DNA from: a virus
Virus record (IMG/VR): IMGVR_UViG_3300049893_000337
Coordinates: 1 to 24,328 of that record
Strand: one strand, 5' to 3'
DNA: 24,328 nucleotides
Shown here: piece by piece, positions 1,808 to 21,160 of the stretch
Layout: every line of letters starts with the position of its first letter
How positions within the stretch are numbered: position 1 is the stretch's first letter
Made by a program: the position numbers and the translations under genes
Notes under the pieces: model-generated
Seen by the model: only the letters and a program-made list of their open reading frames with translations
Told to the model about the DNA's origin: nothing
The model's database searches: none

Positions 1808-1818
1808 GTTTATCTCCG

Positions 1819-2853
1819 TTAGAGCGCAGCGCCGATGAGCTGCGTTTCAGCACCGACCATAGACACGAAGGCGCTAGCCGCCGACGAAGCCATCTGCCCA
1901 TACACCTGTGCTTTTGCGATGTTACCGTCAACACCAAGCTTCTCAGACTGGTAATCCTGATTCGCTCTGGTGGTGATGTAGTGATCGTGCGAACCGGCCA
2001 TGATCTGGTGCGCCTTGAGGCTAAGCTCAGCCTCAGAGACGATGGCGCGGTAATAATCCGCAGCAGTGTTGACCATCTTGGATTCAGCGTCCGCCTTGGC
2101 CTGCGCAACTTGGGCCGACACACCCTGCGGAGCCATCCACGTACGGACGAAGTCACCGAGCGCGGTAATAGCAGACTGACGTACTTTCGTGCCCTGCTCA
2201 ACGGCGAACTTCACGTCCTCGCGGTACGCGTCAAACACCTTGATAGCGATGTCGCGCGACAGGGAGCGTGCCTTATCAGCCGCTTCTTGCTGGACCATCA
2301 TCAAGCGGTGAGCCAAAGCACCAGTTGGGATGCTGAAGCCACGGCTAGCTAGTCCGTTCAAAGCCTCGAACTCCATCTTGCGAGTCTCGCCGATCTCACG
2401 GTCGACTGCCTTGGCCCAGATCATTGCCTCGATGTTAGCGGGAATGCCGCGACCGCCGTTGAGGATAACGTCGCCGATCCAGTTCTCTACGCGGGTGCAC
2501 AGCACGCTAGGGAACCAAGTAGCAACGTACTCAGCGATACCTGCCTCCATGTCGTCGTGCATATCAGTGAAGGCGTCCTTGAACGCCTGCTCGATATCGC
2601 CAGAGATATTGGTGGAGTTCTGATACAGCGGCCTGGTTACAGGCAGAGTGATGTTCGGGACCGTGTATGCGTCGTACTCGTTAAACGCGTTGGTGGTGAG
2701 TGGGACGGAACCGTTGTTGATGGTAACGCCGTCCATGGCGGCTTTGTACCGCGTGGCGATGAACCCAGCTTCGCCGGCGGCGTTACCAGCATTGGTGACC
2801 AGCGAGAGCGTCTGAAGTCTCGCGTCGTTGATCAGCTTCTCAGTATCAGCCAT
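1819..2853 (-). CDS. Conserved-looking helical phage virion protein (344 aa)
   Basis: The ATG at 2853 overlaps the end of the upstream 258-aa gene by 8 bases (ATGGCTGA), so the two are translationally coupled. The N-terminal 140 residues are mixed. From about residue 140 to the end the protein is predominantly helical and charged. A central segment with the pattern IWAKAVDREIGETRKMEFEA, then LASRGFSIPTGAL, resembles a motif I associate with uncharacterised structural proteins of several tailed phages. There is no signal peptide or transmembrane segment. Neighbours are a tail-associated beta protein upstream and a probable internal or ejection protein downstream, so a neck, tail or ejection role is likely. 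The precise function is unknown. Confidence 0.8.
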   Translation of the reverse strand: MADTEKLINDARLQTLSLVTNAGNAAGEAGFIATRYKAAMDGVTINNGSVPLTTNAFNEYDAYTVPNITLPVTRPLYQNSTNISGDIEQAFKDAFTDMHDDMEAGIAEYVATWFPSVLCTRVENWIGDVILNGGRGIPANIEAMIWAKAVDREIGETRKMEFEALNGLASRGFSIPTGALAHRLMMVQQEAADKARSLSRDIAIKVFDAYREDVKFAVEQGTKVRQSAITALGDFVRTWMAPQGVSAQVAQAKADAESKMVNTAADYYRAIVSEAELSLKAHQIMAGSHDHYITTRANQDYQSEKLGVDGNIAKAQVYGQMASSAASAFVSMVGAETQLIGAAL

Positions 2854-3622
2854 TCAGACGTCTCCTCTGCGACTCGCTAACGTCTATGCCTATCGAGTCA
2901 ATTTCGAACGATCCGCCGTTCGGATTACTGATAGCAAACGTCCAGTACCTCGACCGCAAACCTTTGCCAAGTATAGCACGCGTGTTGCCAAGGCCATCAG
3001 GCTTAGGTACACCGTAAGTATATACGGTCTCGTCATCAATAGTCACGGACAGCAGAAGGTCCTCGACCGACTTACCACCGAGGTAAACGAACGGGCAATG
3101 CTTCATCTCATGGGTCTTAAAGTCGTCCGTGCCGAGTATGACAAAACTCATAATCTCGCTGCCGTCATCCAGGTTGCCGCTAAGCTTATAAATGCCGTCG
3201 TGGGCCACCCCGTAATGCTCTCCGTTGTGTACGAGGAAGGACTGAAAGTCGTAGTTCTCATACGACGAAAACGCCTTTGTCTTGGCGTTCATAACCCACG
3301 TAAACACCGCCCCCTCCGGTGCTGTACGTGACGCAGCGATGACCTGACTGATCATCGTCGCGTAGAACGTAGCCGCTACGGACGCGGAGCTGGACGCAGA
3401 TGCCGAGGACGACATGCTATTTGACGTCACCTTGGCGTACGTCATAGCCAGATTTACCGTCCCGGAGGCCGAGATAGACAGAGCCATCACGCGCACTGGG
3501 GTCAATGTAGTCGAGCCGCTACCCGTCGAGGACGCCGTCGCCGTGTGTACGACGGCGATATAGGGGGTAAAAGACCCTGCTACCGTTCCGGTGCTGCTAG
3601 CCGTGGCTGTATATGTCGGCAT
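2846..3622 (-). CDS. Tail-associated structural protein with Ser/Ala-rich linker (258 aa)
   Basis: The start at ATG 3622 is chosen because GGAAGGA (3631-3637) lies at good spacing upstream. Residues 1-65 are beta-rich and contain TATASSTG twice (about 5-12 and 27-34), suggesting two short related beta units. Residues 67-84 are almost entirely Ser and Ala, a likely linker. The C-terminal half (about 115-258) resembles a domain found at the end of many phage tail or neck beta-propeller proteins: it has NLDDGS, an LGTDDF segment, a YLGGKS segment and GLRSRYWTF near the end. I interpret this as a virion attachment domain. The first 43 bases overlap a small upstream ORF. Specific function is unknown. 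Confidence 0.8.
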   Translation of the reverse strand: MPTYTATASSTGTVAGSFTPYIAVVHTATASSTGSGSTTLTPVRVMALSISASGTVNLAMTYAKVTSNSMSSSASASSSASVAATFYATMISQVIAASRTAPEGAVFTWVMNAKTKAFSSYENYDFQSFLVHNGEHYGVAHDGIYKLSGNLDDGSEIMSFVILGTDDFKTHEMKHCPFVYLGGKSVEDLLLSVTIDDETVYTYGVPKPDGLGNTRAILGKGLRSRYWTFAISNPNGGSFEIDSIGIDVSESQRRRLNG

Positions 3623-3765
3623 GTGACACTTCCTTCCTTGATCTTACTTTTCCTGATAGCTCTGGTAGTACGAGTCAACTTACTGCGATCCACGTACATA
3701 ATTGCCGGGTTCTTCGGCAACGTCCGAGGTGTGCAGTCAACTACTGTCTCAGGTAAACCAGCCAT
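3580..3765 (-). CDS. Small basic hypothetical protein (61 aa)
   Basis: The ATG at 3765 overlaps the TAA of the Asp-box gene as TAATG, the same coupling used at many junctions here, which is the main support for this ORF. The product is rich in Arg and Lys (for example RKSKIKEG), has two Cys, and shows no transmembrane segment or recognisable domain. Its last 43 bases overlap the start of the 258-aa gene in another frame; such a long overlap is unusual in this window. It could be a real minor protein, or a coupling ORF that keeps ribosomes on the message up to the strong downstream Shine-Dalgarno. I do not recognise a family. Confidence 0.5.
   Translation of the reverse strand: MAGLPETVVDCTPRTLPKNPAIMYVDRSKLTRTTRAIRKSKIKEGSVTCRHIQPRLAAPER
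3630..3639 (-). promoter_or_regulatory. Strong Shine-Dalgarno for the 258-aa gene
   Basis: On the minus strand the sequence AAGGAAGGAAGTGTCACATG places a doubled GGAA-type Shine-Dalgarno 8 bases before ATG 3622. It lies inside the upstream 61-aa ORF and fixes the start of the downstream gene. Confidence 0.75.
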
Positions 3766-5378
3766 TACGGCTTCTCCAATCTACCCGGGTGCCCCGGCCA
3801 TAGCGGCTGTTTGACTCCGAACGCCCCAACTATGCTGGACCTATACGGGTTAGAAAACTTATCTGGCGTGAAGTAGTTACCAAATCCAATCGGTTTGGTA
3901 AGGAACGGCGTACCAGTACACAAGTAGTCAGTATATATGCTCAAGTACACCGGCACTATAGCGTCGGGGAATGTACTCTTTGGAGAGAACGGGCTACTGG
4001 GGTCGTAGCCGTGACTATAGGTAGGATCCGGTCGTGTTCGTAAGTAGTACATAGCTCCCTGGGTACCATCAGATGCGTCTTTAATGCCGTACGGCGCAGT
4101 GTCTATCTGAAGGTCACCGAGCGGATTACCAAGGCTTAGCGCGTCTTTCAGCTGCCACGTAGCTCCATCATCCTCCGAGACCATGCGCTTTCTAACCGCA
4201 GCCGGTTCGCCGTATGCCTGGTACCAAACGTCCATCACAACCACCCCCGGCTTGGGAGATACCATGAAGTTCCTGCCAAATAGCGGTACTTCACCTATGC
4301 CCATGTACGCCTTGCTAACAGTCGGTGCGGTAGCTTCGTAGGAGCTTAGGGTAGTCCAGGACGTGCCGCCGTTTGTAGAGCGGATCAAGTAGTATTTATC
4401 GCTAGACAGCACATAACCAACGATTACGTCGTCTCTAGGGCTCACGAACGAACTTAAAGCGTCGTTGCATAGCGATAGACCGAGTAGCGTCTGCGTGCTC
4501 GTGAAGCTCCACGTATCTGTAAACACGTCAGCCTTAGCTATGTATGACGCCCCCGCGCTGGTAAACAGGAATGTAATGTTCCCGCGCTTATAGGGGATAG
4601 GTATAGTGACACCGGTTATTTCGTAGCCTAGATATCTCGGCCAGATAGCTTCAAAAGCCCCAGTATCTATATTGGCCTTGGCTATAACTCCGCAGTTATC
4701 AGAGCCGAAAGGGTCGCCAGTGGGCGCATCGAACGATGTAAACGTAACCCACCTGCCGCCGCTGCTATCCTGACCCACTCGCTCTAGTGCATAGAACATA
4801 TCGTTCGAAAGGTTGAAGCCGACGTACAGCCCAAAACTATCTTTGACTACGTACCGCGGATCCAGGCCTGGTTTAATCACAGATATGTAGCCAGGTACCC
4901 AGGTACTTGAGAGATACGTGAATTCGTTTGTCTGCTGTGGTGTGAGCTGAACAATGGTGTCGCCCATTGGCAGAATCAGCATATTGTCGTCGTCAGAGAA
5001 GTTGCCGCCGCTAGACGAATACAGAACTTTCTCTGTGTTCTTAGTGAAGTTCGTAGTTATGCCGCCCCAGCTACGCCGATTCCATACACCATCTATCAGC
5101 GCCGGATCCATAGCTGCAGCCTGGCCAGGATCCAAGAACGCACCGGCTCCGATACCCATAAGCCCGGCACGTATGAGGGCAAAGATGTCAGCCCCAACAG
5201 GCTGAGTGCGGACGCGCTTATTCCCAGCCGCGTCGACCGTGGCTTCAACTCTACCGTTCGGGGTGTTGATTACTTGGCGGGAGGGAACGCCAAGCTCAGA
5301 TATGCAGCGAAGCCGGTTCTCTCCTAGGGGGAGGAGAGAACCAGATCCGGGGGCAATACACTTGGTATTGCCGCCCAT
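3765..5378 (-). CDS. Asp-box (BNR) beta-propeller virion protein (537 aa)
   Basis: The product is beta-rich throughout from about residue 95. Two segments match the Asp-box pattern S-x-(D/N)-x-G-x-x-W: STNGGTSW near residues 333-340 and SEDDGATW near 400-408. Asp boxes mark sialidase-type (BNR) propellers and related glycan-binding or structural propellers. A catalytic sialidase Arg triad cannot be confirmed from sequence alone. The N-terminal 90 residues look like a separate attachment region with an Ala/Gly-rich segment near 65-90. There is no signal peptide, as expected for a virion protein. The start follows the upstream TAA after only two bases (TAATTATG) and no Shine-Dalgarno is apparent, so translation probably depends on coupling. 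A strong hairpin lies at about codons 13-22. Likely a tail or host-contact component; enzymatic activity is unproven. Confidence 0.75.
   Translation of the reverse strand: MGGNTKCIAPGSGSLLPLGENRLRCISELGVPSRQVINTPNGRVEATVDAAGNKRVRTQPVGADIFALIRAGLMGIGAGAFLDPGQAAAMDPALIDGVWNRRSWGGITTNFTKNTEKVLYSSSGGNFSDDDNMLILPMGDTIVQLTPQQTNEFTYLSSTWVPGYISVIKPGLDPRYVVKDSFGLYVGFNLSNDMFYALERVGQDSSGGRWVTFTSFDAPTGDPFGSDNCGVIAKANIDTGAFEAIWPRYLGYEITGVTIPIPYKRGNITFLFTSAGASYIAKADVFTDTWSFTSTQTLLGLSLCNDALSSFVSPRDDVIVGYVLSSDKYYLIRSTNGGTSWTTLSSYEATAPTVSKAYMGIGEVPLFGRNFMVSPKPGVVVMDVWYQAYGEPAAVRKRMVSEDDGATWQLKDALSLGNPLGDLQIDTAPYGIKDASDGTQGAMYYLRTRPDPTYSHGYDPSSPFSPKSTFPDAIVPVYLSIYTDYLCTGTPFLTKPIGFGNYFTPDKFSNPYRSSIVGAFGVKQPLWPGHPGRLEKP
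5315..5342 (-). other. 11-bp perfect inverted repeat inside the 5' end of the Asp-box gene
   Basis: GGTTCTCTCCT at 5315-5325 is exactly complementary to AGGAGAGAACC at 5332-5342, with a 6-base G-rich (plus strand) loop. On the transcript the hairpin begins about 36 bases after the start codon. No T-run follows it, so it is not an intrinsic terminator. It could be an mRNA structure that slows ribosomes, protects an end or serves as a processing site. Confidence 0.7.
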
Positions 5379-7140: not shown

Positions 7141-10100
7141 TTACATACTAGCATACGCCGCAATAACAATCTCTTCTGGAACATGGCTCGCCACGGTCTC
7201 TTGCTCCTCGCTTAGCGCCGAGAATCCAGCCAGTTTAGCCTCGGGCGACGCCGGGGTGTAGTCGGTGACGTAGCCATACCCGTCTTGCGCTTCGTCACCT
7301 ACCAAATTAGCCCCGTATGCACTCACGAGCAGAGTAGCGGACCCAAACACAGCCGGCGCGACTACCGTGGATCCAGTACCGGAGACGGCTACCACGCCAA
7401 AACAGGAGAATCCGGACATGCCTACAAGGCGGTCTGACGCACCAGACACAAGCGCAGCGCCGGTACACGAACTCGTAGTTCCGGCCAAGTTAGCCCCGGT
7501 ACCCACGAACGGGGTAGCGCCTGTACCCGCCCCCGTGACTGAGATAGTGGACGTTCCGTAACCAGTGATTGGAGTAAGTACAAGGCCGCTACCGCTACCG
7601 GTAAAGACGACCGTGTTGGCCCCAGTACCAACAATGATAGACGTCACGGCTCCTGAGCCTGATCCGATGAATGCAGCTAGCGTGTTAGCGCCAGTACCAC
7701 TAATCGCTCCGTCGTTAAGTACAACGCCGGATCCGGTTGAGGTGATGGCTACCGTGGCTGTCGCTGTCCCTAGGCTACGGTTCCGCCTAGATGCGCATGA
7801 CGACGCAGACTGGGGGGTGTAGCCCAACTCATTCACGCCGCCAATCGCTGAGATAGTTTGGGTGGCAAAGGTGAATCGATCAAACGTCGCGCGCGTGCTA
7901 CCGTCCCAGCGCGGCCCCCATATACCGTACGTACTTCCAGAGACGGCATTCACACCGTACCCAGAGAAACTTAGTACCGCCGCGGGGTTTATGTACAGTT
8001 CCAGATCGAACTGCATACCGTCGATCTCGGTAAGATAGGAACCTGTTGCACCCCCTCCAAAAAACGCGTGAGTGGCGTTACAGATACCGCCTGCCGCCTG
8101 TCTCTGGACGATACTAACCGACGTAAGTGTGCAAGCCTCAGTTGCGAAATTCAGCCTATCAACCCTGTTGGTGTTTAAGCTATTTTCGACACCGCCAGCG
8201 GCGTAGCCGTGTGTGTCTGAGTTAACGCCGCACACTGAGTACCTAGCCACGGTGTTCACAGCCGATAGCACCGCGGTCGTCTCCGTAGCGAACGTGAGCG
8301 CCTCCATGGAGTCCAGCGCCACAGTTGTAAAGCCGGCTACGATATACCCCTTAGTAAACGACTCGTAGCTCCCCGGGTATTCGCGGGCTGTCGTGAAGAC
8401 CGCGGTATCGTTGACTACGGCGTCGTTCGAGAAGGTGACACTGTCAATCGTCGCGTTACGCCCGCCAGTAGACGAGAAGCCGACGCTGGCGTAACCCTTC
8501 GTCTTTGACGCGAACCCAGCCCCCCACTGTCGGTTGATCGGAAGTACCCAAGCAGCGTTGAGGTACCTGTTACCGGTATGGATATCTATCCGAACTATGC
8601 CGTTATCGGGTGCGGTGTTATAGCCGCCCATCATGTACCCGGTACCATCGTACGTCGACAACGCGGCGGTAGCAGAAGAGCTGAAGTCATCAAGGAGCAG
8701 GACTTGCTTTACCTTGAAGCCGCCAGTGATGTCCTCAACCAGGTTGCCGCCGCGACCTTTGATATCCGTCGTGTACGCAGAGAAGTGGTAGTTCGACTGC
8801 CCGGAGTACTTTGCCAAATCCGACTGCGATAGCGAGATAACACTGGACGTCATCGTCTGCAAATTCGCAGCGGCTACGAAAGTCTGGCTAGAGTACGCCC
8901 CGTACGAGTTGTGCATCCAGATACCATCTCGAGACTGCGCGTAAGTCTGATAGTATTGATCAGAGCCAAGATTGCTCGAGTTTCTTGCAAGGAAGTTAGT
9001 GGGGCTACTAGCTAAGGCAGTTACTGTGTCGGTAGCGTACGTTATCGACTTCCTGATTTCAGTCGGGCCATCGGTGTATCTATAAATTTCGCTTATAAGC
9101 GCGGCTGTGGGGAATCTTGGGGTGCCGAAGAACTCTTTACGTCTGTTAGCCGAAAACACACTGGCACTGTTCGTCATCGCCCGCGTGCTAAACGTGTACT
9201 TCCTATACGTAGTGCCAGACCATGTAGCTGCCGAATACCCCGCTACGTTTGATGACGCAGACCCCATAAACTCAAAATTTGATGGGACAACGTCGTATGT
9301 CCAAGCACTCTGCACTATGACGTCCGTAGCATGGGTGAGAACATACTCAGCGTGCGACGACACGCCGTCTGACTTCAATATCGTAGTCTCTGTGTCCCTA
9401 GTGAAGCCGGTAGTAATCCTCCCGATAGCTGGAGCAGTGCCGCTAACGCACACCAATAACTCCGATCCTATTAACCACTTGTACAGCGATGTGCAGGCCG
9501 TGGTGGATGTATTGGAACTCTGATAGGTAATCAGCCCGCCAAAAACGTGCCCACCCATATTCGCATTAGATGAATAGCCGTATCGGGGCAGAAAACCCAG
9601 CTGGTGTAACGCGATGTATCCGGTTGCTAGGCCCGCCTTATACACGCGCCCGTAGTCGTATGGGAACGTCGGATAAGCGAAACCAGCGTCTTCCGGGACA
9701 ACTCCGAACCAGCCGCCTCCTGAGATACTAAATAGGTTCGTACCAATGCCGCTTATAGAGCCCGCAGCGCCGCTCGCAGAACTTGTGAAGTCTGCCAACG
9801 TAATAGTAGGTGCGCCGCTTGCATTGTTTCTAGTAACACCGGAGCTACCCTGGGTAGTGCTAGCAAGCGTATTAGCCCCGGCACCGTCGCGCGTGCTATC
9901 ACCGAGGCAACCACGCCCCGCCGACGTAAACGCGGCCAAAGAGTTAGTAGTAGTGCCAGACCTGTTCTTGCCTTGTATCAGACAGCCGGAATAGAAAGAT
10001 ACGAAGGATATCCCAGCGTAAATAATGCCGATATACGCAGTGTCGGTAGCGAAGGATACCAACCCGCGTCTTTGGTCACCGAACGTGTACCCCCAATCAG

Positions 10101-12702
10101 CTGTGCCATCTTGTGCTGAACCGGTAGTGAGGTTACCTGAGTAGAGTATGTACGTCGCGATAGTGTCCGTAGTTAAGTTGACCGTCCAGTACGCAGTGTT
10201 TATCTGGTTATCTCTGTTACCGTGCAGGTACGCCTTATTAGTCCCGTTACTAACGGCGAAGTACATGGTTCCGATCTGGTTGTCGATCAGAAAATTCAAG
10301 TTAGTATCAGCAACTTCTGTCGAGTAGAGGAACCGCGCAAGGTATCCTTGGTTAGTTCCAGGATCATGGACTGTGTACGCCTTCGACGCAGAGGAAAAAC
10401 ACTTAGGTGCGTTGGCAGCTGTCGATATAGTCCCTGCTGGGTTAGATGCCGTCTCTGTGGAGAACGTCAACTTCTGGACCTCTGTCGATGCCGTCGTGTT
10501 GTCAGTACCGCCAAGTGAATAGCCAGCTGTCGGAGCGTTAGCGCCTGCACCGTACCGATGGCCAGTAGCTAGAGTACTCGACAGCGTCGACTGCCCATAC
10601 GTAACTCCGGTGACCTTTCCGATAGACGTAGCACCGAGGGAAGATATAGTCCCGCCCATCGTATAAGCAACTGAGTAGTCAGACGGTCTAACAGTAGACG
10701 CCTGGCTCATGTCGTAGCTGACGTTCGTAGCACTGAGCGACTCAGTGTAGACACCGCCAGTGGTGACGTGAGCAAAGTACGTGACGTTCGCTGTCCCGTT
10801 CCTGTGCATAGCGAACATCTGATATGGATGGTCGCCGGGAGGGGCGGGCATATCAAAGAACGCACGGCCTTGCTGAGTGAAGCTATCGAGTATGTTGGGG
10901 GTGTTCTTCTCTTTCCACCCTTCGCCGTAACTTGACACAGATGGCGAATCACCGCCAACGCCAGTGAACGTGTTGTTAATCCGCACACCCTCGCCGTACG
11001 ACGTAAATCGCTCAACAGTATTCGCAACTGTTGACACCGTCCTTGTTAGTGAGTTTACTGAGTGAGACTGCGCCCAAGTAGCTACCCCACTAAGCGCCCC
11101 AGCTGCGACGAAGTAACCTAGTGTCTGCGTCGCTGGGTAGTAAACTTCGAACGCCCCAAAACACTTACTGGGACTACAAAGCGCTAAACCCCGCAACCCG
11201 GTATAGTCAGTCCCGTTTAGCGACCCGGTAACCGTGCTAGTAACGTATGTCGACGTGTTGTACACGTGATCGTACGTAATACCGGGAGTGGATGAGGTAG
11301 TGGTAGCCACCCTCCGAAGATACGCGACCTCACCCCACCCAAAAACCGACTGAACAAGCCCGACCGTCGTCAGCACTGTAGGGAACGTAAGCGTGTCGGA
11401 GGACCAGTCGTACTTTCGGACCGTACTTATAAACGGCGTAAACGTAGTCGCGCTACTACTGCCGCCGAAGAAAAATCCGCCGCCAGAGCCGAATGAGTAA
11501 GGTGCGCCCTCGCTCCCTGTGTACGCCGAGTATGAAGTCGACGTCACAGTCTCTGAGGATAGCGTGAACTTAGATGCGGTTGTAGCGGCAGTCTGAGTTC
11601 CGCCACCGGACGTCCCGTTAGTCGGCCTAAACCAGCCTTCTACAATCAGGGCGAACGACGCCAGGTTATACACCGCCGCCCGGCTGTTGTACTCGCCGGA
11701 CATTGTTGCAGCAGAGCCTGTAGCTGTTTCTGTCGACCACACCATAGCGTTATATCGGGTGCTTCTGTCGAAGAACGGGGAACCAGATTGGGCGTAGTAC
11801 CCAGTGTATGACTTCGTTGCGCTGGAGAATGTGCCACTACGCGTTTTGTTGGAGAGGTAGTCGGCGATAGCGGTCGTCGTATAGTACGACGAAGTCAGCA
11901 AATTCATTACAAACGACGTCGTCGTCCCCTGATGACCCCAGGCCTTTTCGAGTATGTACTGCGCTGTACCTGCGCTATTACTTGTAAACGTATCGAGCGT
12001 GTTCGCGCCCTGACCTAGTTTCCAATCTAGCCCGCCGTATCCGTCAAGAATTTGCAGGGTGTTGAGCGTATTTGCGCCAGTGCCGTTCAGCGTCGGATAG
12101 CCTGAGCCCGTCAGCGTGCCGGTACCTGATTGCGTAAAGGTACTTAGAGTGTTGCTTCCTGTCCCCGCTGACGGCAAGAAGCCGGGGAGGATGATGTGCG
12201 ACTCGCGGCCACTAGCTACTGCGCCATCGTAAAGCAGATACCCAGTACCTACCGCTGCTGTACCGATGTTAGTTACGAAGACCTGCAGCGCAATACTTGA
12301 GTTAGCTGTGAACTGCGCACTGAAGTTGGCAGTGAACGTCAGAAGCCCGGCAACCGTGTTCATCTCGATGCCGTCGTCGGCGGTCATTACGATACCGCCG
12401 TCGAGGAGCAACTTTGCGCGGAGACCGTAGTTACAGGTCATCGCACTTTCGTAGCCGTACAGGTTAAAAGTTACTGTGCTGCCGTTTGTGAACGTAATAG
12501 GGGACGTCGGGTTATACGTCCAGGTGATCAGTTCGTTAGCGCCGCGCGGGAAGTTCGCAAAGCCGAATTGCTGCTCGCCAGTACCGGCGAAATCTACGGT
12601 CCAAGCGTCAATAGTCGACGCGGCTCCCGCCGTTAAGCTCAGCGTCTGATTTTGAACGAAGGCCCCACCCGCTGGGGTCCGTAGATATAGGGTAATGGCC
12701 AT
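7141..12702 (-). CDS. Giant modular tail fibre or appendage protein with kelch-like and GTGANT repeats (1853 aa)
   Basis: This is one open frame of 1853 codons starting at TAATG 12702 and coupled to the 70-aa gene. Residues 1-175 form an N-terminal beta-rich, probably virion-attaching region. Short Gly-Thr-rich repeats with the core GTGANTL occur in three clusters (about 174-250, 910-997 and 1641-1800). Between them lie two long blocks. The second (about 1350-1640) shows five or six kelch-like units of about 50 residues: a GY..GG turn, then an acidic-hydrophobic strand with FATET or FATEA, then R...G before the next GY. The first block (about 250-900) has similar but more degenerate FSTET, GG and FATDT elements. 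The C-terminus is short and acidic. Kelch-like units form beta-propellers in known proteins. A receptor-binding or whisker role is likely but inferred; no enzymatic motif is seen. Confidence 0.8.
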   Translation of the reverse strand: MAITLYLRTPAGGAFVQNQTLSLTAGAASTIDAWTVDFAGTGEQQFGFANFPRGANELITWTYNPTSPITFTNGSTVTFNLYGYESAMTCNYGLRAKLLLDGGIVMTADDGIEMNTVAGLLTFTANFSAQFTANSSIALQVFVTNIGTAAVGTGYLLYDGAVASGRESHIILPGFLPSAGTGSNTLSTFTQSGTGTLTGSGYPTLNGTGANTLNTLQILDGYGGLDWKLGQGANTLDTFTSNSAGTAQYILEKAWGHQGTTTSFVMNLLTSSYYTTTAIADYLSNKTRSGTFSSATKSYTGYYAQSGSPFFDRSTRYNAMVWSTETATGSAATMSGEYNSRAAVYNLASFALIVEGWFRPTNGTSGGGTQTAATTASKFTLSSETVTSTSYSAYTGSEGAPYSFGSGGGFFFGGSSSATTFTPFISTVRKYDWSSDTLTFPTVLTTVGLVQSVFGWGEVAYLRRVATTTSSTPGITYDHVYNTSTYVTSTVTGSLNGTDYTGLRGLALCSPSKCFGAFEVYYPATQTLGYFVAAGALSGVATWAQSHSVNSLTRTVSTVANTVERFTSYGEGVRINNTFTGVGGDSPSVSSYGEGWKEKNTPNILDSFTQQGRAFFDMPAPPGDHPYQMFAMHRNGTANVTYFAHVTTGGVYTESLSATNVSYDMSQASTVRPSDYSVAYTMGGTISSLGATSIGKVTGVTYGQSTLSSTLATGHRYGAGANAPTAGYSLGGTDNTTASTEVQKLTFSTETASNPAGTISTAANAPKCFSSASKAYTVHDPGTNQGYLARFLYSTEVADTNLNFLIDNQIGTMYFAVSNGTNKAYLHGNRDNQINTAYWTVNLTTDTIATYILYSGNLTTGSAQDGTADWGYTFGDQRRGLVSFATDTAYIGIIYAGISFVSFYSGCLIQGKNRSGTTTNSLAAFTSAGRGCLGDSTRDGAGANTLASTTQGSSGVTRNNASGAPTITLADFTSSASGAAGSISGIGTNLFSISGGGWFGVVPEDAGFAYPTFPYDYGRVYKAGLATGYIALHQLGFLPRYGYSSNANMGGHVFGGLITYQSSNTSTTACTSLYKWLIGSELLVCVSGTAPAIGRITTGFTRDTETTILKSDGVSSHAEYVLTHATDVIVQSAWTYDVVPSNFEFMGSASSNVAGYSAATWSGTTYRKYTFSTRAMTNSASVFSANRRKEFFGTPRFPTAALISEIYRYTDGPTEIRKSITYATDTVTALASSPTNFLARNSSNLGSDQYYQTYAQSRDGIWMHNSYGAYSSQTFVAAANLQTMTSSVISLSQSDLAKYSGQSNYHFSAYTTDIKGRGGNLVEDITGGFKVKQVLLLDDFSSSATAALSTYDGTGYMMGGYNTAPDNGIVRIDIHTGNRYLNAAWVLPINRQWGAGFASKTKGYASVGFSSTGGRNATIDSVTFSNDAVVNDTAVFTTAREYPGSYESFTKGYIVAGFTTVALDSMEALTFATETTAVLSAVNTVARYSVCGVNSDTHGYAAGGVENSLNTNRVDRLNFATEACTLTSVSIVQRQAAGGICNATHAFFGGGATGSYLTEIDGMQFDLELYINPAAVLSFSGYGVNAVSGSTYGIWGPRWDGSTRATFDRFTFATQTISAIGGVNELGYTPQSASSCASRRNRSLGTATATVAITSTGSGVVLNDGAISGTGANTLAAFIGSGSGAVTSIIVGTGANTVVFTGSGSGLVLTPITGYGTSTISVTGAGTGATPFVGTGANLAGTTSSCTGAALVSGASDRLVGMSGFSCFGVVAVSGTGSTVVAPAVFGSATLLVSAYGANLVGDEAQDGYGYVTDYTPASPEAKLAGFSALSEEQETVASHVPEEIVIAAYASM
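7255..7780 (-). repeat. GTGANT repeat cluster 3 (C-terminal) in the giant protein
   Basis: Codes for successive units such as GTGANTLAAFIGSGSG, GTGANTVVFTGSGSG, GYGTSTISVTGAGTG and GTGANLAGTTSSCTG. Unit length is about 15-26 residues, with the Gly-x-Gly-Ala-Asn motif in frame. DNA copies are diverged, so the similarity is at protein level. Confidence 0.75.
9710..9975 (-). repeat. GTGANT repeat cluster 2 (central) in the giant protein
   Basis: Codes for related units such as GTTTNSLAAFTSAGRG, GAGANTLASTTQGSSG, GAPTITLADFTSSASG and GIGTNLFSISGGG, at about residues 910-997. It separates the two kelch-like blocks. Confidence 0.7.
11950..12183 (-). repeat. GTGANT repeat cluster 1 (N-terminal) in the giant protein
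   Basis: Codes for GTGSNTLSTFTQSGTG, GTGANTLNTLQILDGYG and GQGANTLDTFTSNSAG at about residues 174-250, directly after the N-terminal domain and before the first kelch-like block. Confidence 0.75.
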
Positions 12703-12914
12703 TACAGAACCCCGTTGTACTTATCGCCGTCCTTCTTGTTCCAAGGCGCGGTATACCAAGTACCGAGTGAGGCCCAGTTATAACCCTGCACCCAGAACCA
12801 TATCTTCCGGTGCAACGGAGTGCTCATCGTGTCATGCCAATCTGACACGAGCTTCATCTTCCGACGAAGCTCGGTCACCTGAGCCCTGAGCGCGAAGAGC
12901 TCTTCTTCAGTCAT
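12702..12914 (-). CDS. Small Trp-rich protein with N-terminal coiled coil (70 aa)
   Basis: The start at ATG 12914 overlaps the upstream TAA (TAATG), and the stop at 12702 overlaps the next ATG the same way. A 12-residue longer reading exists but would overlap the upstream gene without a reason. Residues 1-25 form a heptad-like, charged helix (EEELFALRAQVTELRRKM). Residues 26-58 contain six Trp (26, 39, 41, 47, 53, 58) in a compact region, ending in a polar tail. Trp-rich short proteins of this sort could pack onto a larger fibre or act as a chaperone for it. Position between the 201-aa helical protein and the giant fibre supports a partner role, which is inference; I do not recognise a family. 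Confidence 0.7.
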   Translation of the reverse strand: MTEEELFALRAQVTELRRKMKLVSDWHDTMSTPLHRKIWFWVQGYNWASLGTWYTAPWNKKDGDKYNGVL

Positions 12915-13519
12915 TAGTACACCGCCAAGCGCTTCATAGTATCCTCGCACTCGAGCCTAGCAATGGACTGCTGAATCCTGGCCGGCAGCTGGTACATGTC
13001 TTCGGTCATGTTGATGATGGACTCCTGTGCCCCGCCACCAGCCGTTAGTTGGCGCTGCAGCCGCTGCTGGAAGTGAATCATCTCCTCAGCCTCGAACTGT
13101 TCGCGTGTGTACTTTGGAAGCTTCTTGAATTCAGCGTACATCTGATTCAAGTCGACGAGGAGGTCATTCAGCAACTTCGTCTCATACATACCGCCTTCTT
13201 TAAGCTGACGGAGCTCGATCTCAAGGCGTCGCCTAGCGAACTGGTCCAGATCACCAGAGCGAAGTTTCTCTTCCTTCTCGTCAATATCAACCTGCTTGAG
13301 CTCCTGACGATACCGATTCTCCTTAAGCGTCTGGATCTTCGAGAGCAGGCGCAAACCGATAGTGCGATACGCCCGAGCAGGCGTGATCTGCGCCGCCACA
13401 ACAAAGGCTTTGTTTTGGAACGCCGAGTTTTCAAACGGTATATCGAAGAACGCTTCTTCGATCTCTTTCAGAACATCGGGGACTTGCTTCTCATCAATCG
13501 GAACAAGTTCGTTTGCCAC
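12914..13519 (-). CDS. Helical conserved-looking phage protein (201 aa)
   Basis: Starts with GTG at 13519, preceded by AGGAGAG with about 4 bases spacing to the codon. The N-terminal region reads IDEKQVPDVLKEIEEAFFDI, then NKAFVVAAQITPARAYRTIG, a pattern I recall from an uncharacterised protein of diverse tailed phages. Residues 60-160 are very rich in Glu, Lys, Arg, Gln and Leu, consistent with long helices or coiled coil. Its first codons follow a terminator hairpin closely, so it heads a new translational block. It precedes the Trp-rich and giant fibre genes with TAATG coupling and may be an assembly factor or structural adaptor for them; function unknown. Confidence 0.75.
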   Translation of the reverse strand: MANELVPIDEKQVPDVLKEIEEAFFDIPFENSAFQNKAFVVAAQITPARAYRTIGLRLLSKIQTLKENRYRQELKQVDIDEKEEKLRSGDLDQFARRRLEIELRQLKEGGMYETKLLNDLLVDLNQMYAEFKKLPKYTREQFEAEEMIHFQQRLQRQLTAGGGAQESIINMTEDMYQLPARIQQSIARLECEDTMKRLAVY

Positions 13520-13533
13520 AGCACTCTCCTATG

Positions 13534-13558
13534 AAAAAAGGGGGCAGCGGCCCCCTTT
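13534..13558 (-). terminator. Rho-independent terminator after the 132-aa gene
   Basis: On the minus strand AAAGGGGGC-CGCT-GCCCCCTTT forms a 9-bp stem with a 4-base loop, followed by TTTTTT (complement of 13534-13539). It lies 22 bases after the stop of the 132-aa gene and ends just before the AGGAGAG of the next gene. It probably lowers, rather than stops, transcription into the downstream genes. Confidence 0.9.
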
Positions 13559-13580
13559 GGTAAAAAGGCCAGATGAGTCC

Positions 13581-13979
13581 TTACGCGTTGCCGGCAGTGA
13601 TCGTCTTCGCGGTGATGGTGATAGTCTGACCAGCGTTAATGATGTTGTTATCGAGCACGATGTCAGTGCCAGACGTACCGACCGATCCTTGCTCGTGACA
13701 CGTAGTAACGGTCGAGTCAAAAATCCGGTAGTAGCCGGCAGTACCAGAGTTCGATGCCACGACGGACCAGGTGCCGAGGAGCGTTTTCGTACCGCTCGAC
13801 GCCGCGTTCATCCAGTCTGAGGGCAGGACCATCGTCGCGATCAACGTGCCAGACGACGCAGTAGCGCAGTTAGCTGGCTGCGTACCGGTATAGAACAGGA
13901 GCCTGGCAGAGGTCCCGATTGTAGACTCGATGGAGTTAAGCATCGCATCACGGACTGCAACTGAATATTGAACAGCCAT
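13581..13979 (-). CDS. Small virion structural protein (132 aa)
   Basis: Starts at ATG 13979 with TAGGAGAAAGAA upstream, a strong Shine-Dalgarno. The sequence begins MAVQYSVAVRDAMLNSIE, then a TGTQPANC segment, LPSDWM, and ends with ITITAKTITAGNA. I associate this layout with a widespread small structural protein of tailed phages, often encoded beside tail fibre genes. It is beta-rich with high Gly, Ser and Thr and has two Cys (near residues 38 and 94). The gene is followed by a terminator, a feature shared with the decoration protein gene and consistent with need for many copies. Exact position in the virion is unknown. Confidence 0.75.
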   Translation of the reverse strand: MAVQYSVAVRDAMLNSIESTIGTSARLLFYTGTQPANCATASSGTLIATMVLPSDWMNAASSGTKTLLGTWSVVASNSGTAGYYRIFDSTVTTCHEQGSVGTSGTDIVLDNNIINAGQTITITAKTITAGNA

Positions 13980-13999
13980 TTCTTTCTCCTAGAAGTTAG

Positions 14000-14014
14000 G
14001 AAGTCTTAGACTTC
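14000..14014. other. Short inverted repeat around a stop codon
   Basis: GAAGTC-TTA-GACTTC forms a 6-7 bp palindrome centred on the TAA of the 138-aa gene, with no T-run. It may be a weak RNA hairpin between two structural genes or chance. Confidence 0.35.
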
Positions 14015-14422
14015 TTTCCTGCAAGTCACAGCAATATCGGTGTTAGGTCTGACCGAAGTCACGGCGCTAACATCGGTAAAAGCCACTGCGGTCTCGCTAA
14101 TCATAGACGCGGTAGCTTCATCCGTCACCAAAACATTATACCCTAGCCCCTCGCCATTGGTGCTAGTCAAGGCTAGCGGTGCAGATACGGAGAAGACTGG
14201 GGCCGAGTCCTGCGTAACCTTTTGTGGGTCCAGCTGCACCGTAGTGAATACCCGCTCAACCGCACGGAACACTACAGTGTCGGCCTCCTTTGCGAATGCC
14301 CATATCTCATCAACCGCCTTGGTCGTGTAGAGATATACGCCCTTGAAGACTTCTACGACAAGGCTAAAGAACCATGACCTGGTATCGTAAGACTTGGTAT
14401 CGAAGGACCGCTCGTCAAACAT
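14006..14422 (-). CDS. Small structural protein, possibly tail-associated (138 aa)
   Basis: Start at ATG 14422 overlaps the TAA of the 677-aa gene (TAATG). The N-terminus reads FDERSFDTKSYDTRSWFF, an FDxRSFDT-type pattern that I recall from small phage structural proteins. The rest is mixed helix and beta, without a transmembrane segment. It lies directly after the tailspike candidate and before the 132-aa structural protein, so a role in appendage attachment or assembly is plausible. Function is not established. Confidence 0.7.
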   Translation of the reverse strand: MFDERSFDTKSYDTRSWFFSLVVEVFKGVYLYTTKAVDEIWAFAKEADTVVFRAVERVFTTVQLDPQKVTQDSAPVFSVSAPLALTSTNGEGLGYNVLVTDEATASMISETAVAFTDVSAVTSVRPNTDIAVTCRKEV

Positions 14423-16455
14423 TACGGCACCAGTACGCTACGGAACTTGTCGCCTTCGGAGCCGTCGCCGTGTAGAGCTGTGCCGACCATCCTAATCACG
14501 TTAACGTCGTGAACGTCGTTATACGTGCTTATCCCGGAGTCACTGATATTACCAAGTGTATTGGTGTGCAGCATAACTCCATCATTAATGACCGTGCCGC
14601 TGGTATATGAGTCGATACGAATGCCGTAGCCGAAGTTATTGTGGATATTCGCATCTAGGATGCGATTCAGCCGGTTGCTCGTCCCTGCTCCGGTGTTAGC
14701 CGAGCCCTCAAACTCAATCCCATCCTTACCGTTGAGGTAGTAGTTGCCGCCTTTGACGCTGATCTCGCGCGGTGAGCCGTTGCCGGTGCCGCCAGACATG
14801 TCCTTAATGAGCAGGCCTGAGCGCCCACACTTCTCAGACTCGCAGTCGATGAGTTCATGGTAGTCGCCGTGTGTGTAGACAATACCAGACCCAGTACCGA
14901 CGCCCTGGCCAGCACCGACTACATAGAGCTTATCGAGCCTGGAGAACTTACCGCTGATAACTACGCAGTCGCTAACAGTGTCGGACGCGTTCGCCCGGAC
15001 AATGAAGCCAGCCATCGAGCAGTTATTCGCCGTGACGCTGATGATCGGGGTGGAGTTATCTGGTGTCAGCGGTTGGAACTGAAAACCGCGCCCGGGCCCT
15101 CGTAGGTGTACGTCTTCTTTGTTTATCACGATCCTCTCTGTGATGACAGCAAGTGTGCTGCTCGGCGACAGGAGGTAAATCACGTCGCCGCGCCCGGACA
15201 CAGCCTCGGTTATAGCTGCCGACACTGTCCGCAGCGGGGACGAGGGGGAATTACCCGGAGCTAGGTCATTACCATTCACAGGGTCTACGAACCAGCGTGC
15301 GCCGAAGCCCTGGTGGGTCTGCCGGAACGACTCAATGTTTATCGTCTGGATGCTGAACTGCTCGGCCATGAAGCCGGAAGCGTCGACCTCGGTACCTTGC
15401 GACTGGTTGATCAGGGTGCCGAAGCCAGTTACCGTGACAATGCCCTTAGTGCATGTAGCGTCCACGATCAGCGTCCCGCCGTTCATGTGGATCCAGCACT
15501 GTCCGGACTGAGTAGCGTGGTTCTGGTTAATGATCTTCAGCCGACCGTGCCAGCCGTCGAAAGTGACGTTCAGTCGGGCACCGTTGCGGTCAAGAATGGC
15601 CGTGCCTTCGTCAGAGTAGCATTCCTTGAAATAAGACGCGTGGCCAGACGAGACTGCTGAAGTCTGTCGTATCGTGTAGCCGCGAGTGGTGCCGTCCATG
15701 AGGCCGCAGCGCTCGTAGATACAGTGCGCGTTGTCCAGACCGTCGATAACGCAGTCGTGGTAGAGCGACTCACCGCCCTGATAACCGGTAATTTTGCAGT
15801 GGTGCCACTGACTATTAGTGGTGATGCAGCCTTGCGTAAGGGTAACAGTCGTCCGAGCGACGTTCAGCGTAGCGCCCTGGCCCTCGAAAATCAGCGCAGT
15901 GACGTCATCAGTCGCGCCGATAGTCAGGTTGCCGATGATGCCGTAGTCGTCAATACCACGGAGAGCGGCGATGAACTTGGCGTCCGCGAGGTTGCTAACC
16001 GGTCTTTGGCCAGTACCTATCGGGTACGCTGTACCCGCAGTGCCACCAGACGATTTGATCCAGACCTTGCCTTCGAACGAAGACTGCTGGATCTCCTGCA
16101 TCTGCACCAGACCGGCAGAGTTATTGGATCGAACGGCGACGTTGTTAAGGTTCGTTACGTCGAGGATATTGTTGTTTGACCCGATCAGCGACACCGAGTA
16201 GCTGCCGTTTTCAAACGTGATAGTGTAGCCGTTGATGATCTCGATGATTCGCGCGTACTGCAGACCGCCTAGCGAGACAACGGTGTTGTGCCTGTGCGTA
16301 TCAGGGTACGGCATGCCCTCAGGCGAATCTTCAAGGTCCTTAAGCGCAAGGCGGAACGTGTCGGTATTTAGGGCGTAGCTTGTACCGCCAAGGAACGTGA
16401 GGTCAGCCTGCGGTATCGTTATAACCTTCGTAGCCCAGTTGATGGAGATCGCCAT
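14422..16455 (-). CDS. Tailspike candidate with attachment domain and right-handed beta-helix (677 aa)
   Basis: Start at ATG 16455 overlaps the upstream TAA (TAATG). Residues 1-125 match a recurring phage N-terminal domain: INWATKVITIPQADL, then FRLALKDLEDSPEGMPYPDT, HRHNTVVSLGG, and ending in NSAGLV. It is found at the start of many unrelated fibre and spike proteins, so it is probably the virion-attachment part. From about 130 to 380 the sequence has regular short strands with Asn, Gly and Cys turns. Near residue 385 a second part starts with RWFVDPVNGNDLAPGN, a pattern that opens many pectate-lyase-like (DUF1565-type) right-handed beta-helices, then continues in beta-helix form. Such proteins often bind or cut surface polysaccharide. 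Catalytic residues cannot be assigned. Receptor-binding role is inferred. Confidence 0.8.
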   Translation of the reverse strand: MAISINWATKVITIPQADLTFLGGTSYALNTDTFRLALKDLEDSPEGMPYPDTHRHNTVVSLGGLQYARIIEIINGYTITFENGSYSVSLIGSNNNILDVTNLNNVAVRSNNSAGLVQMQEIQQSSFEGKVWIKSSGGTAGTAYPIGTGQRPVSNLADAKFIAALRGIDDYGIIGNLTIGATDDVTALIFEGQGATLNVARTTVTLTQGCITTNSQWHHCKITGYQGGESLYHDCVIDGLDNAHCIYERCGLMDGTTRGYTIRQTSAVSSGHASYFKECYSDEGTAILDRNGARLNVTFDGWHGRLKIINQNHATQSGQCWIHMNGGTLIVDATCTKGIVTVTGFGTLINQSQGTEVDASGFMAEQFSIQTINIESFRQTHQGFGARWFVDPVNGNDLAPGNSPSSPLRTVSAAITEAVSGRGDVIYLLSPSSTLAVITERIVINKEDVHLRGPGRGFQFQPLTPDNSTPIISVTANNCSMAGFIVRANASDTVSDCVVISGKFSRLDKLYVVGAGQGVGTGSGIVYTHGDYHELIDCESEKCGRSGLLIKDMSGGTGNGSPREISVKGGNYYLNGKDGIEFEGSANTGAGTSNRLNRILDANIHNNFGYGIRIDSYTSGTVINDGVMLHTNTLGNISDSGISTYNDVHDVNVIRMVGTALHGDGSEGDKFRSVLVP

Positions 16456-16670
16456 TACGAAGTCGCTCCATGCCCCATGTCCTTGATACGCATCATTGTA
16501 ACCTGCGTCTGCAGGTTCTGCAGCCCGTTGAGCAACCCGAGTTGCTGCTCAGCCATCCTGGCAACCTGCTTTTCAAGCTCGCCTCGAGCCGCTTGCTCAT
16601 GCTTCAAGGCCGCGTAAAGCGCCTCAATGTTGCGCTTGGCGATGATGATGTCGTCGCTTACGTACGTCAT
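16455..16670 (-). CDS. Coiled-coil miniprotein (71 aa)
   Basis: Starts within ATGA shared with the stop of the upstream 599-aa gene (16667-16670) and ends in TAATG with the tailspike gene. Residues 10-62 are an almost unbroken amphipathic helix with Leu, Ala and charged residues, such as IEALYAALKHEQAARGELEK and LLNGLQNLQTQV. There are no Cys or membrane segments. A short coiled coil between two beta-helix appendage proteins could help trimerise or chaperone them, but this is inference from position. Confidence 0.75.
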   Translation of the reverse strand: MTYVSDDIIIAKRNIEALYAALKHEQAARGELEKQVARMAEQQLGLLNGLQNLQTQVTMMRIKDMGHGATS

Positions 16671-18466
16671 TGGTCGGCAATCAGCTGGACAGTACTGGAG
16701 AAACCGAGGGACGAACTGACCGTACCAGCGATACCAGCCGACTTATAGTACGGTGCTGAGCTCGACTTACGCGCCCACCCAGTGATTGGCTGGCTAGAAC
16801 CAAACACCCGTGAGACTGTTGGCACGTTACCGTTTGCGTCCGTCACATCATCATGTAAAACATAAGTCGACTTGATCGTGCCCGTCGGGCTGGAACCCGG
16901 AGCCGACGTCATGGTGTACGAGTAACTATCGTTGTTAATCTTGGTGATCGTAAACACACCGTTGTTCGCTGCGTGACTCGCCCCCTTGATAACCACTTTG
17001 TCATTCGTAGCCATACCATGCGCAGTGTGCGTCACCGTAGCCGTTGTGCTGCTATTGGAGATAGTTACGGTGACGTTGGACGGCATCGGGCCACCAGCAG
17101 CCGCTTTGACGTGCACACGTGCGTTTTGAATAGCCACACCGTCTGTATCCGTCACCTTCACGTTGGAGCTAACAGCACCAGAGATCACAGTTACAGCGCA
17201 CCCTGCAGTACGGATCGACGGCGTATTGCCACCGCTGATCGTGATGTTCATGGAGCCAGTGGCGATATTGACGAAGATCGCCTCGTTACCGGTGCTGCCG
17301 TCAGACGCTGCGTAACCTGTCCACGTGTTGTTGGTCAGCGTGATATTAGCTGCGGTACCAGTGATTTCAAGCCCATACTTCGTGCCGCTGCTGATGAACG
17401 TTGAGCCGCTGATAAGCGCAGCATTCGCCGGTGACGAAGCGGTCACCGCTTTTGTGCTGTCATTGGTCTTGTCGAACGTGCATCCAGTAAAGGGGCCACC
17501 GCCGACTGTAACTAAGTTACAGCGCCGCCAGATAGTCTTATCAGCAGATGCTGCGGACTGGAAAATGAACGTGCCCATGTCCGTAAACGTGCACGAGTTC
17601 AGTTCCACATCCGCGTTGTCGATACACTCAAAGTTTCCGCGTGACGTCGTACCAAGTGCCGTAATGCTGATATTGTTCCACTGGACGTATGAACTTGCTT
17701 GGCGCACTTCAATTTTGTTGAACGCGCTCGTCACCTTCTTGGTGTTGGCGATGACGATGTTCCGGTTGCTGTCGCGGAAGTCCACAGCTGATGTATAGCC
17801 AAGCGTCATCAGCCCTTGCCATTGATAGCTACCACCGACAAGCTGGAACAAGCCCCACCGGTTCGTTGTGCTGTTCGCTGTTGATTCGAGTGAGGCGAAC
17901 GTGGCGTAGCCATTGGCAAGGTCGCCGCCGTTCATGCGAAGCTCACCACGACCGTATCGAATGGCGTCGACACCGAGCGGGTTGCCTTTACCGATGGCAG
18001 CACCAGTCTTGATCCGTGCGAGCACCCCGAAGTACTGGAGCGTCGAGGTCGGTGAGCCCGTCGTCGCGTCCTGTGTCAGCGAAGGGTCGACGGGGATACA
18101 CGCCCAGCCATCAAACGGAGAAATCGTGTCAGCACCACGCACATACCACTGCTTGTACGCAGTGGTGCTGTTACCGATGATCAGTTGCAGACCGCCGTTT
18201 GCTTCAGTCTCGAGCGCGCCTGGGCCCCAAAAATACGCCCATGCGAAATACGCATTCGGCGTGCTGATAGTCTTGCCAGAACCGCTGTTGAAGATCGCAC
18301 CGCGAGTAGCGTCACCAGTCCATCCAGGTTTGCTGACGCAGTTGCCGTTCTGGACGTAGAAGTCAGTCTCAGAGGCCAACGCGCCCGTTCCGACGTTTGT
18401 CCAGTTCGTAACTGATTGCGCCAGATCGAGGTCAACGAGGTCTGTCGTATAGCTGGCTGCGGCCAT
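16667..18466 (-). CDS. Beta-helix virion protein with C-terminal FCCH-like domain (599 aa)
   Basis: Start at ATG 18466 follows the upstream TAA directly (TAAATG) with AGGTGG just upstream. Residues 190-440 are a row of short beta strands with Asn, Ser, Thr and Cys turns (for example CTFTDMGTF and CTFDKTND), the look of a right-handed beta-helix. Near 459-532 is a segment with THTAHGMATNDKVVIKGA and TITKINNDSYSYTM, resembling the ubiquitin-activating E1 FCCH-like fold that recurs in phage tail proteins. The C-terminus is beta-rich. It probably belongs to the host-contact apparatus. Enzymatic activity is not evident. Confidence 0.75.
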   Translation of the reverse strand: MAAASYTTDLVDLDLAQSVTNWTNVGTGALASETDFYVQNGNCVSKPGWTGDATRGAIFNSGSGKTISTPNAYFAWAYFWGPGALETEANGGLQLIIGNSTTAYKQWYVRGADTISPFDGWACIPVDPSLTQDATTGSPTSTLQYFGVLARIKTGAAIGKGNPLGVDAIRYGRGELRMNGGDLANGYATFASLESTANSTTNRWGLFQLVGGSYQWQGLMTLGYTSAVDFRDSNRNIVIANTKKVTSAFNKIEVRQASSYVQWNNISITALGTTSRGNFECIDNADVELNSCTFTDMGTFIFQSAASADKTIWRRCNLVTVGGGPFTGCTFDKTNDSTKAVTASSPANAALISGSTFISSGTKYGLEITGTAANITLTNNTWTGYAASDGSTGNEAIFVNIATGSMNITISGGNTPSIRTAGCAVTVISGAVSSNVKVTDTDGVAIQNARVHVKAAAGGPMPSNVTVTISNSSTTATVTHTAHGMATNDKVVIKGASHAANNGVFTITKINNDSYSYTMTSAPGSSPTGTIKSTYVLHDDVTDANGNVPTVSRVFGSSQPITGWARKSSSAPYYKSAGIAGTVSSSLGFSSTVQLIADQ

Positions 18467-18802
18467 TTACACCACCTGTGCAGTCGTGTTGCGGTCAGCC
18501 TCGATTAGCGCAGCGATAGCTGCTTCGATGGTAGGTAGCGCGTTCACGAGGGTGGTATTACCTGCGCCTGCCTGCCGGATAGCCTCCAGTAGAAAGTCAC
18601 TCAACTCGATCTCCCGAATCTCGTGGTGGTACACACGCGTGCCGTCGCGCACGCCGTACAGACGGTACTCGATAAACACCGTGTAGTGCGGCGGCGGGGC
18701 GTCCTCTGCGACCTCGGTCTGGTCTATAAGCAACCTACGGAGGAACACGCGGTTGTACGCGACCTCCGGCTGCTGAATAGCGTCCGCGATCTCGATGCCC
18801 AC
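18467..18802 (-). CDS. Hypothetical protein between two structural genes (111 aa, GTG start)
   Basis: The frame is open from 18916, but that longer version would overlap the 585-aa gene by 112 bases. GTG at 18802 comes 2 bases after the upstream TAA and is the preferred start, giving 111 residues; no strong Shine-Dalgarno is visible, so coupling is likely. The product is acidic, with a VFIEYRLYGVRDGTRVYHHE beta segment in the middle and an Ala-rich helical C-terminus (IEAAIAALIEADRNTTAQ). No family is recognised. Position suggests a minor virion or assembly protein. Confidence 0.65.
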   Translation of the reverse strand: MGIEIADAIQQPEVAYNRVFLRRLLIDQTEVAEDAPPPHYTVFIEYRLYGVRDGTRVYHHEIREIELSDFLLEAIRQAGAGNTTLVNALPTIEAAIAALIEADRNTTAQVV

Positions 18803-18804
18803 GA

Positions 18805-20562: not shown

Positions 20563-20572
20563 GGCTTACTCC

Positions 20573-21160
20573 TTAAGTCGTAACCTCTGAATCAATTGTA
20601 ACAGACCCATACAGGATTCCAGTAACTACACCGGTCCCGGAAACCATCTCTAGGTCGTAAACACCCTTCTTGGCAGTGAGCGCTGCTGCGTTAGTGGCCG
20701 TCATCGTGATCTGGATAGTCTTGGCATTATCGTCCACCGTGACTGTGAGGGTGGGGCTCACACCAACTGAACTAGCAATGGCCGTACCGCCTACTTTGTC
20801 CTTGATCGTCATACGCCCTGTAAAACCAGCCATGCTGACCGGGGTGTAATACTTAACCACACCGCCGCTTGCGTAGGCTTTGAAATCGAGCGAGTTAATG
20901 TCATTGATCTCGATGGTGTTAGGGTCGATGACCGTAGCCTTGCGCCACTCAGTCGTGCTATTGATCTGAGTCATACCCTTCACAGACTCGATCATAATGC
21001 GCCAGCCATCTGGGACACCGTGGGTAGCGCTGGTGATGCGTACCGGAGCCGCCTGGGTGATAGCGGTGATCGCCTTGTAGACGAAGGGTTGCTCCTCCCA
21101 GCGGATGACTTGAGAGAAGGTCTTGCCTTTGGTGATAACCAGGTCTTTTTTAGTGGCCAT
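20573..21160 (-). CDS. FCCH-like tail protein (195 aa)
   Basis: Start at ATG 21160 overlaps the stop of the endolysin gene (TAATG). The N-terminus (DLVITKGKTFSQVIRWEE) resembles the first strand of a common phage tail-associated family. Residues 40-106 have VRITSATHGVPDGWRIMIES, KGMTQIN, and DPNTIEINDINS followed by ASGGVVKYY, a pattern of an E1 FCCH-like domain often annotated in such proteins. The C-terminal half (from about 110) starts GFTGRMTIKDK and contains GVYDLEMVSG, again a recurring layout. It is probably an early component of the appendage or baseplate-like module. Family assignment is moderately sure; exact role is not. Confidence 0.75.
   Translation of the reverse strand: MATKKDLVITKGKTFSQVIRWEEQPFVYKAITAITQAAPVRITSATHGVPDGWRIMIESVKGMTQINSTTEWRKATVIDPNTIEINDINSLDFKAYASGGVVKYYTPVSMAGFTGRMTIKDKVGGTAIASSVGVSPTLTVTVDDNAKTIQITMTATNAAALTAKKGVYDLEMVSGTGVVTGILYGSVTIDSEVTT

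Follow-up and report, generated by a model that had tools for sequence, protein, structure and literature searches.

Kelch proteins have been described from several bacterial viruses. Those of phage vB_PcaM_CBB (CBB_552) were described as virion parts (PMC5259590), long-read sequences of marine viruses were reported to be rich in kelch repeats beyond expectation (enrichment; PMC9238414), and one kelch repeat protein was noted in cyanophage P-HM2 (PMC3037559). Longer tandem chains are encoded in unannotated phage contigs, such as a protein of 2276 aa with many six-blade groups in contig L050 and one of 1823 aa in contig L054. In this study, we analyzed IMG/VR virus record IMGVR_UViG_3300049893_000337 (the window, 24,328 bases), which encodes a giant protein apparently composed of kelch propellers and glycine-rich repeats.

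Multi-kelch proteins encoded in T4-like and cyanophage contigs (S-SKS1, L050, L054 and family phrog_19111) resemble the giant protein in the chaining of six-bladed kelch domains within one protein, and its domain P4 is 26-36% identical to them. However, the proteins of S-SKS1, L050 and L054 have near-identical blades and lack both GTGANT spacers and a C-terminal repeat array. L054 shares a phrog_1409-like neighbor gene with the virus studied here, but is a contractile-tailed phage and not a podovirus. The CBB proteins are likewise structural proteins of a phage with a kelch propeller, as the giant protein would be if its probable virion location is correct; unlike it, they are listed at only ~265-285 aa, a length that holds roughly a single propeller and leaves no room for spacer arrays. 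The original prediction knew of no described phage fibre with this exact arrangement, and we found none in the open-access literature searched, where neither kelch propellers chained by spacers of this type nor a link to phrog_1409 turned up. The kind of protein is not new, because the tandem chains of L050 and L054 and the kelch virion proteins of CBB exist.

Structural module of a podovirus

The window is the structural module of a short-tailed bacterial virus (podovirus), encoded on the minus strand. This assignment is based on the head-closure protein Hc3, which matches phrog_8040 and is 25-31% identical to its relatives, among them those of Acidovorax phage AP1 and Pseudomonas phage KPP25. 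As in KPP25-like podovirus modules, Hc3 is followed by an ig5381-type protein. The main genes are as follows.

22530-23168, minus: Hc1-like adaptor (phrog_399)
21160-21486, minus: endolysin, M15-type
20573 down to 14422, minus: cluster of fibre-like proteins, including ORFs 18805-20562, 16667-18466 and 14422-16455
13581-13979, minus: structural protein phrog_3758
12914-13519, minus: phrog_1409-like partner protein, 201 aa (E 2e-9)
12702-12914, minus: small gene of 70 aa (ATG start at 12914), with TAATG overlaps on both sides
7141-12702, minus: giant fibre-like protein, 1853 aa, an ORF with positional homologues in L141, L146 and L156
5893-7122, minus: Hc3 head-closure protein (phrog_8040, E 3e-49)
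beyond Hc3, minus: further structural proteins

The giant gene belongs to a cluster of fibre and lysis genes that lies between the endolysin and Hc3, and is surrounded by fibre and connector genes as a tail-fibre gene would be. Fibre-like and lysis genes occupy the corresponding place in the closest relative (L025). In many relatives of Hc3 the Hc1 gene lies just before it; here ~15 kb with genes for lysis and fibres lies between the two (7141-22530). A 2485-aa ORF before Hc3 in another contig (L024) was considered as a fibre and rejected, as it resembles a helical internal-type protein.

Several features were also observed downstream of Hc3. The 537-aa protein at 3765-5378 has a weak BNR/Asp-box match (E 0.002, below the cut-off) and is possibly a further, non-kelch propeller of the same virion module. 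Residues 1-95 of the protein at 2846-3622 display lags of 20 and 22 (p 0.09) and may perhaps form a short beta repeat of the kind seen in the C-terminal arrays. A 63-base tandem repeat (774-928; 2.5 copies, 90%) within the 602-aa ORF 2-1807 encodes a proline-rich PHGTGPLRPPP unit.

Domain organization of the giant protein

The giant protein is encoded by a single ATG-started ORF, as originally predicted. No close relative of the whole protein was found in phage, IMG/VR or genome-contig collections, and none of its N-terminal domain among viral, phage or genome contigs. No fibre-anchor and no C-terminal trimerization or chaperone domain was recognized by Pfam and PHROG searches, including those with the N- and C-terminal parts. 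Its domains are listed below, all on the minus strand.

12184-12702, minus: N-terminal domain, residues 1-173, without Pfam or PHROG match
11962-12183, minus: repeat cluster L1, residues 174-247 (GTGSNTL, GTGANTL, GQGANTL)
10963-11961, minus: P1, residues 248-580, probable kelch-like propeller (weak; blade profile, hhalign, three FxTET motifs)
9988-10905, minus: P2, residues ~590/600-905, six-bladed kelch propeller (predicted fold and blade 727-772)
9706-9987, minus: repeat cluster L3, residues 906-999
8698-9705, minus: P3, residues ~1000-1335, probable kelch-like domain (pairwise similarity to P4 and to propeller A of L146)
7783-8685, minus: P4, residues 1340-1640, six-bladed kelch propeller (PDB phmmer, phrog_19111, predicted fold)
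7288-7770, minus: C-terminal repeat array, residues 1645-1805, period 10/20
7141-7287, minus: C-terminal tail, residues 1806-1853, and stop codon

The protein reads as four kelch-type propellers, P2 and P4 by sequence and fold, and P1 and P3 on weak sequence evidence. P4 matches the designed six-bladed kelch propeller SAKe6FR (E 2.5e-11, PDB phmmer) and the phage family phrog_19111 (E 2e-16). Its blades recur at a lag of 47 residues (0/400 shuffles) and those of P2 at 48 (p 0.005), both within the ~44-50 residues of a kelch repeat. In P2, one blade (727-772) scores 40 bits with the blade profile, and the domain as a whole is similar to P4 (z 5.9). Two kelch-like blocks had been proposed from the sequence, at about residues 250-900 and 1350-1640. 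The second was confirmed at 1340-1640, while the first separates into P1 and P2. To these we add a probable kelch-like domain at ~1000-1335, a region to which neither block had extended, on the basis of its pairwise similarity to P4.

AlphaFold models were built of residues 240-912 and 905-1853 from an alignment of 34 two-propeller IMG/VR kelch proteins. Both P2 and P4 fold as six-bladed kelch propellers with pLDDT mostly of 60-90 (mostly 70-90 over residues ~662-850 of P2). The P2 model aligns with the kelch domain of KLHL7 over 245 residues (VIA Z 19.6), and the P4 model with a kelch domain over 255 residues (Z 22.1); all VIA-align matches listed are kelch proteins, since these two domains fill the list. 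Additional Foldseek matches in BFVD are only other kelch or propeller-like proteins. Because the supplied alignment is itself kelch and favors models of that kind, the models confirm that P2 and P4 are compatible with this fold and do not discover it; P4 has support from its sequence that does not depend on that alignment. Propellers had been expected in both blocks, and they were modeled in half of the first (P2) and in the second (P4), so that the models display neither a propeller-free chain nor one continuous known fibre fold.

A different reading of the remaining domains, which we consider doubtful, is that only P2 and P4 are propellers and that P1 and P3 are other beta-rich domains, giving a two-propeller fibre like those of the relatives with extra domains added. 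It would account for the pLDDT of about 25 in P1 and P3, for the lack of a significant blade period in either, and for P3 being negative with both the blade profile and hhalign. However, P3 is similar to P4 (z 7.3, 0/300 shuffles) and to propeller A of L146 (z 6.2), and P1 scores 14.6 bits with the blade profile (shuffle maximum 7.6, 0/300) and 41.8 by hhalign (E 8.7e-5; shuffle maximum 23.2). FxTET motifs are present in all four blocks, with three copies in P1, and absent from the other segments. The blade motif [FWYL][AST][TSN][EDQR][TAV], which was picked after inspecting the sequence, has 14 copies against 1.3 expected, again in all four blocks and no other segment.

Glycine-rich repeat clusters

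The three GTGANT repeat clusters noticed at the outset were borne out. The motif GxGxNT has six occurrences in the giant protein, far above shuffled sequences (mean 0.11, maximum 2 in 500), and they are found only at residues 180-212, 940 and 1669-1719. All three clusters resemble each other, with z=7.0 for 174-247 against 905-1000, 6.6 for 174-247 against 1645-1805 and 6.5 for 905-1000 against 1645-1805 (0/300 shuffles in each case). They are located ahead of P1, between P2 and P3, and behind P4, and therefore do not simply bracket two blocks. The earlier view that the same linker type brackets both blocks is correct on the mutual similarity of the clusters but not on their positions relative to four domains. 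At the joins P1-P2 (575-612) and P3-P4 (1318-1350), the repeat signal is absent or marginal. All clusters, for which repeated small beta units had been predicted, have a pLDDT of about 25 in the AlphaFold models.

The C-terminal array displays lags of 10 and 20 residues (p 0.02). Linkers L1 and L3 resemble this array (z about 6) and not the arrays of the relatives; weaker signs of such resemblance to the own array were found in L146 and L156, and none in L141. The spacer sequence therefore tends to be common within a protein and different between proteins. A strict GTGANTL-type pattern was found at 17 loci across IMG/VR, and none of those readable in frame has a repeat cluster, so the exact repeat is so far private to the giant protein. 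One GTGANT occurrence, in L017, is a chance match in an unrelated protein. A match to the Carin-1 spike base protein (PDB 8cjz, E 0.003) was put down to glycine-rich composition. A glycine-rich repeat protein of Pan4 and Mae-JY02 has, like the giant protein, a period of 20 with a 10-residue half-repeat and a similar composition, but is without propellers; it was not accepted as a relative, since the period matches but the similarity may be compositional (E 0.05).

Two-propeller proteins in the same slot of related viruses

Three relatives of this virus (L141, L146 and L156) possess an fA20573-like gene, a phrog_1409-like gene and one kelch protein, followed by Hc3. In L146, the order is fD, fB, fF, fA, the phrog_1409-like gene, a kelch protein of 1293 aa and Hc3, and the fibre-like ORFs 18805, 16667 and 14422 of the window have homologues there. 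The kelch proteins in this slot are 1131-1293 aa long. They share with the giant protein the position between the phrog_1409-like gene and Hc3, as well as propellers followed by a C-terminal array of period 20, which is long in the three relatives (0/400 shuffles in each). They differ in having two propellers instead of four (in L141, the blade profile detects 12 blades in two groups of six), in repeat sequences that are distinct in each, and in N-terminal segments that are not alike. The giant protein looks like an enlarged version of the two-propeller protein of its relatives. Growth by internal duplication, one of the possibilities raised in the original prediction, fits these data, as the same-slot relatives have two propellers and the giant protein apparently four, with P2 and P3 both homologous to P4.

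The phrog_1409-like partner gene

The giant gene is the last of a run of three, after the phrog_1409-like gene and the small gene. The latter could alternatively be read as an 82-aa GTG version, which overlaps its neighbor. Both junctions of the run are TAATG stop-start overlaps, which suggests that translation of the three genes is coupled.

In L054, the 1823-aa kelch protein is immediately followed by a homologue of the partner (47% identity, E 7e-59), and this led us to scan with the partner family. The pair in L054 has a tail-fibre gene on one side and connector genes on the other. L054 is a sheath-bearing phage, with genes for a tail fibre, the head-tail adaptor Ad2, the head closure protein Hc2 and a sheath stabilizer. 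The 1470-aa tail fibre (3-4415) lies just ahead of the multi-kelch protein and matches tail-fibre PHROGs; its C-terminal SDERLKTN stretch resembles an S74-type chaperone domain.

The scan yielded 31 loci, which fall into 26 clusters when grouped at 90% identity. A kelch ORF was found within 1.5 kb of the phrog_1409-like gene in 23 of the 26 clusters, and within 200 bp in 17, all co-oriented. With one more case from a second scan, the co-oriented pair within 1.5 kb is present at 24/27 non-redundant virus loci, and at 23/26 when L054, the source of the test, is left out. The scan of genome contigs gave no relative. As a control, the same test found a kelch ORF at none of 44 Hc3 loci. In the reverse direction, only 1 of 68 kelch loci, found by kelch sequence, has a phrog_1409-like gene. 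Compared with 24/27, this means that the association runs from partner to kelch and not from kelch to partner. The phrog_1409-like protein is thus a strong marker of adjacent kelch genes across phage types. The pair is also present in the window, separated only by the overlapping 70-aa gene.

A putative attachment fibre

We propose, with a probability of roughly 0.6, that the giant protein serves as an attachment fibre on the surface of a podovirus virion, that it consists of chained six-bladed kelch propellers and grew by duplication from a two-propeller ancestor, and that it acts with the phrog_1409-like partner. The propellers, four as read and two supported by models, would serve as ligand-binding heads and may bind a receptor. 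The short glycine-rich repeats, with their 10/20-residue period in the C-terminal array, would form the stalk or spacer. The protein also has a small N-terminal domain. The partner is probably a dedicated assembly or attachment factor that would be made together with the fibre from the coupled run. The ancestor would have been of the type found in the same slot of the related podoviruses, with domain duplication leading to the giant protein. As to virion location and receptor, we infer that a host-attachment fibre is most likely.

Besides the doubt over P1 and P3, the closest competitor of this proposal is an accessory surface adhesin. The giant protein might decorate the capsid or tail and bind polysaccharide, mucus or aggregates, while a different fibre from this cluster recognizes the receptor. 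Peptides or glycans are frequent ligands of kelch propellers, many phages carry kelch genes as accessory genes, and several more fibre-like ORFs adjoin the giant gene, of which those at 14422-16455, 16667-18466 and 18805-20562 could be the true receptor binders. We consider this unlikely, as large kelch proteins keep one fixed slot beside Hc3 in three relatives. Alternatively, the kelch chain could belong to the short tail itself, in the nozzle or collar, where propellers would be packing modules as propeller folds are in tail nozzle proteins of podoviruses. The adjacent Hc3 and the beta-propellers reportedly contained in tail proteins of T7 and SU10 would speak for this, but it is improbable, since length, domain number and repeats vary strongly among relatives (1131-1853 aa, two against four propellers), unlike in a core tail part, and Hc3 and its downstream neighbors are conserved separately.

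Implications

Kelch proteins are common in phage metagenomes, and both phrog_19111 and phrog_1409 are families of 'unknown function'. Their tight neighborhood points to a testable shared role for both, and supplies small, defined targets in the 201-aa partner and single propellers. Tentatively, and at somewhat less than even odds, the kelch-propeller fibre and its phrog_1409-like partner may represent a portable adhesion module of two genes, exchanged between podoviruses and contractile-tailed phages. Fibres of podoviruses would then be lengthened by added propellers, and the 20-residue spacer and stalk repeats would keep their period while being rewritten in sequence in each lineage. If the fibre is receptor-binding, propeller chains would offer multivalent recognition by a system other than the usual trimeric beta-helix spikes, and the number of propellers would be a measurable evolutionary variable.
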